Source: a virus. Taken from it: a stretch of 29,291 nucleotides of DNA. The stretch covers positions 1 to 29,291 of the IMG/VR virus record IMGVR_UViG_3300025914_000037. One strand, written 5' to 3'. The notes below the pieces were generated by a model, which searched no databases, had not been told where the DNA came from, and saw nothing but the letters and a program-made list of their open reading frames with translations. A program made the translations under genes and the position numbers. Positions 1,080 through 2,598 of this stretch are shown here, piece by piece. Numbering within the stretch: the stretch's first letter is position 1; every line of letters begins with the position of its first letter.

Positions 1080-1084
1080 CGACT

Positions 1085-1151
1085 ATAGTCACTATTTATG
1101 CCCGAAAATACTTATCACCTAATGAGTATGGATAAATATAGTGACGACTAT
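1085..1151 (+). repeat. Extended imperfect hairpin after the early operon
   Basis: The left arm at 1085-1099 (ATAGTCACTATTTAT) is matched by the right arm at 1132-1151, which is its reverse complement with a 2-base and a 3-base insertion. Between them lies a second stem: ATACTTAT (1108-1115) pairs with ATGAGTAT (1122-1129) over 8 positions with one G-T, loop CACCTA. A perfect palindrome, GACTATAGTC (1081-1090), overlaps the left arm. No T-run follows, so it is not a standard intrinsic terminator; it could protect the 3' end of the early mRNA or mark a processing site. Confidence 0.5.
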
Positions 1152-1205
1152 ATGACAAAAAGTTAGGTAAGGAACCGAGAATAGGGAAAATAGGGCACCA
1201 GTTAT

Positions 1206-1288
1206 GGGAATGTGTAGCTCAACCGGGAGAGCCTTCTTTGACTTAAAATGTCACGTTTGGTAGGCGGTTCGACTCCGCCCCGTTCCCT
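1206..1288 (+). tRNA. tRNA-like element A (degenerate or unusual tRNA)
   Basis: A perfect-geometry acceptor stem is visible: GGGAATG (1206-1212) with CGTTCCC (1281-1287), 7 bp with one T-G. The D arm is GCTC (1217-1220), an 8-base loop holding GGG, and GAGC (1229-1232). The T arm is GGCGG, loop TTCGACT (1268-1274), CCGCC, with the consensus TTC-G-A bases. An anticodon-like arm TGAC-TTAAAAT-GTCA (1239-1253) has a 7-base loop and would present AAA. Departures from a normal tRNA: four bases between acceptor and D stem, about six between D and anticodon arms, only four anticodon base pairs, a 9-base variable region, and one extra C between T stem and acceptor. CCA is not encoded. It may be a real phage tRNA, a decayed one, or a tRNA mimic. 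Confidence 0.45.
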
Positions 1289-1297
1289 CAGTTTAAT

Positions 1298-1431
1298 GGA
1301 AATCGCGGCGTGGACAGTGAGACACCCAATAATATAAACATAGAAGATATATTATTGTAATTATGCAAACGTTTTCTTTAAATAGATTATGTTCTTCTGT
1401 AAATATTCGGTGCAATTCCGAACGATTTCCT
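1298..1431 (+). ncRNA. tRNA-like cloverleaf B with long insert
   Basis: An 8-bp perfect terminal stem joins GGAAATCG (1298-1305) to CGATTTCC (1423-1430). Directly inside its 3' half is a T-arm-like hairpin, TTCGG (1406-1410), 7-base loop TGCAATT, CCGAA (1418-1422). Inside the 5' half is a D-arm-like hairpin, GG-c-GTG (1307-1312) with CACCC (1323-1327), one bulged base. A third hairpin of 10 bp joins 1327-1336 and 1348-1357 around an 11-base loop. About 48 unpaired bases (1358-1405) separate it from the T arm. Arm order and the 5-bp/7-base T arm copy a tRNA, but size (about 133 bases) and the missing anticodon geometry do not. It begins 10 bases after element A. Function unknown. Confidence 0.4.
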
Positions 1432-1443
1432 ATCTTATAATTA

Positions 1444-1512
1444 TGGAGCGTCAGGGTCGGATTCGCACCGCCGAATTATTCCTGGTCGGAATAGTTTCCT
1501 ATTTTCTGACGC
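1444..1512 (-). ncRNA. tRNA-like element C with encoded 3' CCA, minus strand
   Basis: Read on the minus strand, GCGTCAG (1512-1506) pairs perfectly with CTGACGC (1454-1448), followed by T and then CCA (1446-1444), just like an acceptor stem with discriminator base and encoded CCA. The T arm is GGCGG (1472-1468), loop TGCGAAT, CCGAC (1460-1456) with one mismatch; one extra C sits between T stem and acceptor, as in element A. The middle holds a single 6-bp hairpin with a 5-base loop (1493-1477), so there is no normal D or anticodon arm. Its 5' half overlaps the last 37 bases of the mom-like gene. It could be a tRNA mimic or a 3'-end structure of that mRNA. Confidence 0.4.
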
Positions 1513-2093
1513 TTTGGGTATTTTTTAGATAATTTTATTATTCTTTCTTTTAAATTATTGTCAAGAGGCATTGCATAACGATGTTTTATACTTCCTTTAA
1601 CTATTTTTATAAAATCTTTTCCTATGTGAGTACCATACAAAGCTCTCATTGATCGTCCATGCATTCTTTCGCCATGAACAATGTATTCATCCGCGGGTTT
1701 TGAGTCTCCTAAATATATCCAATTACCCCCTTGATAAATTCCACCATGATGATTCTGTTCGGTGTCTGAAAAGGATATTATTAATTTTATACCAGGAGAT
1801 AATTTTCTCAGCATTTTAATTGCAATTGACACAATGCGTGTTACTGTAGATTGATGTTTATTTAAAGCTATTCGTACCAATTCACAGCATTCTAATTGAG
1901 ATAATCCGTAGGGGCTTCCTAACGTATTATTAGCGCCTCTACCGAATAATACACACCCAATAAATTTTTCATTTTCCCATACCCCTATTTTTGTTAGTTT
2001 TCCAGAAGGCATGCATTTGCTATAATGCCAATTCAATACTGCATATTTTGCAGCCTCAAAGCTGCACCAATCTAATTTAAGGGATAAATTCAT
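1476..2093 (-). CDS. mom: Mom-like DNA modification protein
   Basis: 205 residues with the pattern of phage Mom proteins, GNAT-fold enzymes; Mu Mom converts adenine in phage DNA to N6-methylcarbamoyl-adenine, protecting it from host restriction. Visible family features: A-x-x-AVLNWHYSKCMPSGK near residues 14-32, IGVWENEKFIGCVLFGRGA (36-54), the GL.Q-E-x-x-ELVRIAL block (63-77), ISFSD (106-110) and GGIYQGGNWIYLG (117-129). It is downstream of, and overlaps by 17 bases, the ParB-like gene, so the two are coupled; no clear ribosome binding site precedes the ATG at 2093. In Mu, mom is expressed late under Com and Dam control; no com-like gene is visible here. Family call firm; the exact base made is not deducible. 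Confidence 0.85.
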   Translation of the reverse strand: MNLSLKLDWCSFEAAKYAVLNWHYSKCMPSGKLTKIGVWENEKFIGCVLFGRGANNTLGSPYGLSQLECCELVRIALNKHQSTVTRIVSIAIKMLRKLSPGIKLIISFSDTEQNHHGGIYQGGNWIYLGDSKPADEYIVHGERMHGRSMRALYGTHIGKDFIKIVKGSIKHRYAMPLDNNLKERIIKLSKKYPKRQKIGNYSDQE

Positions 2094-2598
2094 GTTTGCA
2101 ATTAGGGCATTCTATTTTAGATTTTTCGTCTAGCTTTCCCTGTTCATCGATTTCAACGGGATCAAAGCTCATTGGTGTTAACATTTCGTTTAACTCTTTT
2201 TCTGAGAATCCCGTAAAAGATAAATCATAACCATTGTCTTTTAAGTCTTGAATCTCTAAAGGTAAAAATTCTTGATCCCAATCGGCCCATGTTGCTGTGC
2301 GATTAACCGATATTCTAAAAGCTTTTATTTTTGACTCTGACCATGTTTCATTAATTGCGACGGGGACTTTAGAGAGACTTAATTTTTTGGCGGCTTTATA
2401 ACGCAAATGACCATCGACTATTGATCCATCGGGTCTTATGCATATAGGTACAGGCATACCGAATTCTTTAATCTGCCCAGCCATTTTATCAACTACATGA
2501 TCGTTTTTTCGAGGGTTTCGAGCGTATGGGATTAGTTTGTTAATGTCCCATATTTCATACTTTATAGATTCAATCTCTTTGAGTAATTCTTCTGACAT
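2077..2598 (-). CDS. ParB/Srx-fold phage protein
   Basis: 173 residues. The N-terminal half is a ParB/sulfiredoxin-fold domain: LIPYARNPRKND (residues 22-33), a helix with KMAGQIKEFGMPVPICI, and the box IVDGHLRYKAAKKL (60-73), which corresponds to the ParB phosphate/nucleotide-binding motif. The middle has the NRTATWADWDQE and FTGFSEKELNEML segments common to phage ParB-like proteins linked to DNA methylases. The C-terminus ends CPNCKHEFIP (Cys 164 and 167), half a zinc ribbon. It does not look like a plasmid partition protein: there is no ParA partner and no helix-turn-helix half. It lies between an unknown gene and mom in one operon, so a role in DNA modification or DNA-end handling is plausible but inferred. 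Confidence 0.75.
   Translation of the reverse strand: MSEELLKEIESIKYEIWDINKLIPYARNPRKNDHVVDKMAGQIKEFGMPVPICIRPDGSIVDGHLRYKAAKKLSLSKVPVAINETWSESKIKAFRISVNRTATWADWDQEFLPLEIQDLKDNGYDLSFTGFSEKELNEMLTPMSFDPVEIDEQGKLDEKSKIECPNCKHEFIP

Follow-up and report, generated by a model that had tools for sequence, protein, structure and literature searches.

Introduction

The virus record IMGVR_UViG_3300025914_000037 is a single 29.3-kb record, here analyzed over its full length of 29,291 nucleotides (the window), which carries structural phage genes on the minus strand and an integrase, for which a search for relatives found none. The window encodes a Mom protein and the ParB-like protein that is its customary upstream neighbor, and beside mom lies a noncoding island for which a sequence-only reading had described three tRNA-like folds, A, B, and C, as well as an extended hairpin. 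Element C is located at the mom end on the minus strand, folds A and B on the plus strand past an operon of small open reading frames. This raises the question whether these structures belong together and what a tRNA-like RNA might do at the end of a DNA modification gene. Mom is a GNAT-fold enzyme and its product is a carbamoylmethyl (glycinamide) group on the N6 of adenine, which resembles glycine. To our knowledge, the question of which molecule donates this group has stood open for decades. Here, we report that C, judged by comparison with its homologues, is a genuine member of an RNA family not described before, which resides beside mom in more than 100 phages, and that it very probably represents a dedicated non-ribosomal tRNA-Gly that would feed glycine to Mom and that is encoded together with its user.

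Structured RNAs in the Window

All four structures, i.e., folds A, B, and C and the hairpin, are present with the sequences and pairings originally noted (Table 1). C indeed runs on the minus strand with one hairpin and an encoded CCA; it belongs to a short class with a 7-bp acceptor stem and absent D stem, and its folding z-score is -3.4 compared to shuffles. An extra C that had been placed between T stem and acceptor exists in the sequence but is better described by a bulged A1457 within a 5-bp T stem, as in most homologues. C is missed by ARAGORN and by Rfam, where it does not reach the gathering score of the tRNA family RF00005, a score reached by only four of 17 tested loci. The promoter-like site upstream of C is sigma-70-like; the number of such sites in the region is not above chance, and given its position inside the mom coding sequence the match may be a coincidence.

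Table 1. Features of the mom locus in the window (positions in nucleotides).
Feature	Position	Strand	Basis or remark
Stable AT-rich hairpin between the plus-strand operon and fold A; outside the mom system	1085–1151	+	folding z -4.0
Fold A, probably an aberrant tRNA, with canonical D arm, T loop TTCGACT, doubtful anticodon AAA, extra linker bases	1206–1287	+	ARAGORN
Fold B, tRNA-shaped; family-like T loop TGCAATT, no NCC, no C2-G71	1298–1430	+	folding, R1, fold search
Element C, mom-linked tRNA-Gly-like RNA, 69 nt including encoded UCCA	1444–1512	-	R1 model, 64.6 bits, E 2e-12
C, discriminator U73 (1447) and encoded CCA (1446–1444)	1444–1447	-	TCCA in 80/97, U73 in 96/97 homologues
C, acceptor stem 3' strand CTGACGC	1448–1454	-	pairs with 1506–1512
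C, T arm GGCGG-(TGCGAAT)-CCG-A-CC, bulged A1457, G55	1455–1472	-	homologue alignment
C, anticodon arm TATTC-(CGACCAG)-GAATA, ACC at 1486–1484, G33 in place of U33	1477–1493	-	hairpin search; helix covaries
C, acceptor stem 5' strand GCGTCAG with conserved G1 and C2	1506–1512	-	pairs with 1448–1454
mom gene, 205 aa	1476–2093	-	Pfam Mom PF25680, E 1e-44; phrog_1384; model TM 0.77 to Mu Mom 8bv8
Promoter-like TTGACA-16-AATAAT, 11/12 match, 25 nt upstream of C	1537–1564	-	within the mom coding sequence
ParB-like protein, customary upstream neighbor of mom	2077–2598	-	phrog_620, E 3e-42

An RNA Family Linked to mom

Relatives of Mom in IMG/VR provided 72 loci as a starting set, and almost every IMG/VR Mom locus carries at the mom 3' end an element composed of GCGNNNN, an anticodon-like hairpin, a T arm, and NNNNCGC followed by TCCA. 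A covariance model built from the C homologues (R1) was run on the window and on 82 loci; in the window it returned C with no other full-length match above chance, and in 71 of the 82 mom loci it gave a strong match, one per locus and all adjoining mom. The scores of ordinary phage tRNAs with R1 do not exceed 20.8 bits, and Escherichia coli tRNA-Gly(GCC) gives no match. The linkage was also approached from the opposite side by scanning IMG/VR for the RNA motif GGCGGTGCAANNCCGACCNNNNCGCTCCA with no protein information, which yielded at least 120 stretches, at least 119 of them new. Among the matches listed, mom was found by the Mom profile in 109 of 119 new motif loci, in 108 on the same strand, and the element lies within 200 nt of mom at 104 of the 119 listed loci compared to 15.6 expected for random placement in the same pieces. 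Some of the ten listed loci with no Mom profile match are cut at a contig end or retain the mom C-terminus only; the sequences in IMG/VR are fragments. Both the tRNA-likeness of C and its link to mom, as suggested by the first reading, are thereby borne out by homologues beside mom.

The arrangement relative to mom varies. The element usually lies after mom; it precedes mom in nine of 99 aligned cases, and in Microbacterium phage Appa it is encoded on the strand opposite to mom. The records of loci L201 and L135 contain two mom genes each, with an own RNA element immediately upstream of each. These different placements, together with the one-to-one pairing in records with two mom genes, favor a product that acts in trans. 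Conversely, mom occurs without the element in the phages Mu, phiEf11, vB_EauM-23, Alsa_1, and FSL SP-031 and in the mom-positive loci L043, L064, L065, and L068. Mom can thus work without the element; host tRNA-Gly must suffice there and is presumably used. The annotated tRNA-Gly of Salinibacter phage B2_17 and that of Appa are family members, as they score 76.9 and 45.2 bits with R1, respectively. The Appa member (L078, 2154–2228, minus strand) is annotated as tRNA-Gly(ccc).

Covariation and Conservation of the Family

The first reading had named the lack of compensatory changes in acceptor and T stems among related phages as the finding that would speak against it, and for C such changes are abundant. 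An alignment of 43 elements made from sequence only contains 90.9% standard pairs and shows a covariation of 0.555, compared to at most 0.150 for structures slid along the alignment, and shuffles never reach this value. For 97 distinct members, a set that includes elements found later, the pairs amount to 97.0% and the covariation to 0.693 (slid structures at most 0.118); as this alignment was fitted to the model, the 43-element alignment is the cleaner test. Moreover, the 5' acceptor strand is absent from the motif used in the reverse search, and acceptor pairing in members found by the motif is therefore independent of their selection. G1-C72 and C2-G71 are present in 97 of 97 sequences, acceptor positions 4–7 covary, and the long-form members retain a 4-bp D stem in 45 of 54 cases. 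Position 18 is an A only in combination with G55 (33 to 0; P 2e-7, a value that ignores shared ancestry), and G or C at this position occurs mostly with T55. This 18-55 covariation suggests an elbow that is retained in an altered form.

Glycine Identity and Loss of Ribosomal Features

Bacterial glycyl-tRNA synthetase recognizes an identity set consisting of G1-C72, C2-G71, U73, C35, and C36. C carries this set completely and it is invariant or nearly invariant in the 97 members. When the best hairpin with a 7-base loop was picked blind to the loop sequence, 75 of 97 elements had NCC in the place of the anticodon, as TCC (40), ACC (31), GCC (2), and CCC (2); nearly all remaining listed elements have NCC in another hairpin that competes with the best one or differs in size, and L147 is without it. 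The features that a tRNA requires at the ribosome have been lost. U33 is present in only 24 of the 75 NCC hairpins, G replaces T55 in 81 of 97 members, most members are without G18G19, and the T stem, to which EF-Tu binds, carries a bulged A in its 3' strand in most of them. C itself departs from proteinogenic elongator tRNAs by its G33, the TGC in its T loop, the missing D stem, and the bulged A1457. The members range from tRNA-Gly accepted by tRNA tools down to C-like ones which no tool reports. The best reading of these sequences is that the C family is a non-ribosomal tRNA-Gly that looks unfit for protein synthesis.

Folds A and B Stand Apart

A 7-bp acceptor stem closed over a 5-bp T arm with a 7-base loop occurs at four distinct sites of the window including A and B, compared to an average of 1.9 hits after shuffling. 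On its own, a fold of this kind therefore proves little, and the fold of B is not beyond chance; A, B, and C are told apart by comparison with other genomes and not by their fold alone. ARAGORN reports A as tRNA-Phe(aaa) at 1208–1287, with only one call in 100 shuffled windows, and Rfam assigns it 24.6 bits to tRNA-Sec, under the gathering score of 47; at a relaxed threshold, all other Rfam matches were at chance level. A has a folding z-score of -1.2, GG in the D loop, and extra bases that flank the anticodon arm. Its best reading is a tRNA-derived but aberrant RNA, an unusual or decaying tRNA. Fold B has a z-score of -2.9 compared to shuffles and a 48-base expansion. The TGC-starting T loop that had been noticed in both B and C holds up, as the T arm of B, loop and stem, matches that of the C family at 14 of 14 positions, and B has, like the family, a D-like loop that contains CAG.

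Nevertheless, the grouping of A, B, and C into one set did not survive the comparison. In A and B, R1 detects no more than T-arm scraps (11.9 and 11.4 bits), which leaves both outside the C family; a shared origin of the three is rejected for A and unsupported for B. Homologues of A and B were found neither by exact or degenerate DNA patterns in IMG/VR nor by blastn against phages and against all fetched loci, one of the patterns matching ordinary phage tRNAs only; both are also absent from the loci that carry a homologue of the small upstream open reading frame at 894–1079. For the hairpin, too, no homologue was found. In two of the fetched loci, the homologue of this open reading frame is followed by other structured noncoding stretches that contain perfect hairpins (L090, 3260–3400; L091, 440–560), and another locus encodes a phage tRNA with the anticodon TTA, which is of the ochre-suppressor type (L086, 9190–9265, minus strand).

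Mom and the Nested RNA Element

The Mom protein of the window matches the Pfam Mom family PF25680 with 152.7 bits (cut-off 27.1), and its predicted model has a pLDDT of 90. In a fold search with this model, the top neighbors next to Mu Mom are general GNATs of the CoA type and not aminoacyl-tRNA transferases, so the search adds nothing on the identity of the donor. S124 of Mu Mom, which is replaced in the inactive crystal (S124A), aligns with a conserved Ser/Thr, and by inspection the R/Q-x-x-G-x-G/A CoA loop is missing from Mom at the matching site.

Gene and RNA are nested. In the window, the mom stop codon (1478–1476) lies inside C, and the last 37 nt of mom including the stop codon form the 5' part of the element. 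The mom frame is open through the entire element in 68 of 99 aligned cases (e.g., L001, L121, and L195), and in 85 distinct elements that follow mom it is open in 71, compared to 47 and 26 for the other two frames. The Mom proteins of many phages consequently bear a tail translated from tRNA sequence, of which DTPAIHAGEGGANPTPALQ is an example, and RNA maturation would cut the mom message.

Proposed Function and Alternative Explanations

We propose that C would be transcribed together with mom, or from an own promoter, and excised from the transcript. Host glycyl-tRNA synthetase would then read the retained identity set and charge C with glycine. The missing U33, the altered elbow, and the T-stem bulge may hold the RNA off EF-Tu and the ribosome, so that its glycine would pass to Mom, which places the glycine-derived carbamoylmethyl group on the adenine N6. 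Besides the covariation, the identity set, and the linkage to mom, the tRNAGly dependence reported for Mu Mom and the missing CoA loop speak for this proposal; the mom phages free of the element, the few elements beside other DNA-modification genes, and the CoA-type GNAT neighbors of Mom speak against it.

The overlap of gene and RNA could also be explained by a structure acting in cis at the end of the mom mRNA, as a cut site for RNase P/RNase Z or as a stability element that tunes Mom levels. At most loci, element and mom frame overlap, excision would at many of these also remove the stop codon of mom, and Mom is toxic when artificially expressed (PMC12707154). Such an element would, however, have no need of an NCC anticodon, C2-G71, and U73, and it is difficult to reconcile with those loci in which the RNA precedes mom or, as in Appa, lies opposite to it; we regard this explanation as unlikely. 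The same observations, i.e., the tie to mom, the variable placement, and the retained glycine identity, weaken the earlier suggestions of a generic 3'-end structure or a generic decoy for C.

An RNA with glycine identity might alternatively support translation, or act as a decoy for host tRNA-Gly that defense nucleases cleave or as its replacement. Phages commonly encode tRNA genes and a few family members pass as normal tRNAs, but the loss of U33, T55, and G18G19 together with the T-stem bulge in most members argues against a role at the ribosome, and the genomic link is to mom and not to tRNA clusters, which makes this explanation very unlikely. Finally, C could be the relic of a decaying tRNA, for instance at an old attachment site. 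This reading, also offered initially, suits fold A and possibly fold B but fails for C, in which conservation and covariation extend over the acceptor stem, the anticodon arm, the T arm, and tertiary contacts; compensatory changes in about 100 members and the 18-55 covariation show selection and refute it, leaving it scarcely credible for C. A dedicated tRNA-Gly that serves Mom thus remains our preferred reading.

Comparison with Known Systems

Staphylococcus aureus reserves certain tRNA-Gly species, which bind EF-Tu weakly, for the synthesis of its cell wall, where these non-proteinogenic tRNAs serve FemX/A/B (PMC4052509). Both they and, as we infer, the C family represent tRNA-Gly for a non-ribosomal acceptor, and the C sequences share with the Staphylococcus type the lost GG18-19, a T stem altered and thereby weakened at the EF-Tu site, a likeness which for the C family is read from sequence, and the retained glycine identity. 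In contrast, the S. aureus tRNAs are encoded on the host chromosome and form a full cloverleaf, whereas the C family is phage-encoded, has a T-stem bulge and G55, and often no D stem. It furthermore lies within or next to the gene of the enzyme presumed to use it, its presumed target is DNA, and it is linked to mom in phages and not to cell-wall genes, which sets it apart from a service to peptidoglycan.

The Mom protein of phage Mu (8bv8) belongs to the same enzyme family, and Mu hypermodification was reported to depend on tRNAGly, in this case from the host, for glycyl transfer (2025 meeting report, PMC12908700). Mu has no element beside mom, whereas the phages described here bring their own tRNA. 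The records of B2_17 and Appa annotate their family members as ordinary tRNA-Gly and draw no link to mom. The Rfam families tRNA (RF00005) and tRNA-Sec (RF01852) reveal a clear ancestry of the family, with members grading from 56 bits down. In the open-access literature covered by our search, no phage-encoded tRNA tied to mom is described; an earlier description elsewhere is possible.

Implications for DNA Hypermodification in Phages

A few elements adjoin other DNA-modification genes instead of mom. In an 83-kb record with no Mom match (G007), the element comes immediately after the gene of a C5 cytosine methylase (L224, 5659–6786; listed alongside are L203 and L156), in a cluster that also holds a radical SAM protein, a TET-associated glycosyltransferase, and ParB-like genes; this cluster is a possible second user of the RNA. 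In a 49-kb record, likewise with no Mom match (G010), the genes that it follows encode a ParB-like protein and a phage GNAT-like protein (PF22559; L225, 3468–4772; alongside L174). The RNA may therefore serve DNA hypermodification more widely than Mom, and we lean towards the view that it represents a class of phage tRNA devoted solely to DNA hypermodification, which would never be ribosomal, is encoded within or next to the gene of the enzyme that it serves, and would not be limited to Mom.

For Mom, the C family provides independent comparative evidence for glycyl-tRNA as the donor and a ready substrate to test this role. If the proposed function is true, this would be the first tRNA known, within the open-access literature, to be kept by viruses for DNA modification. 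The family constitutes a new RNA family that Rfam misses and that tRNA finders mostly overlook, and the RNA could serve as a marker for finding more tRNA-dependent DNA-modification enzymes.
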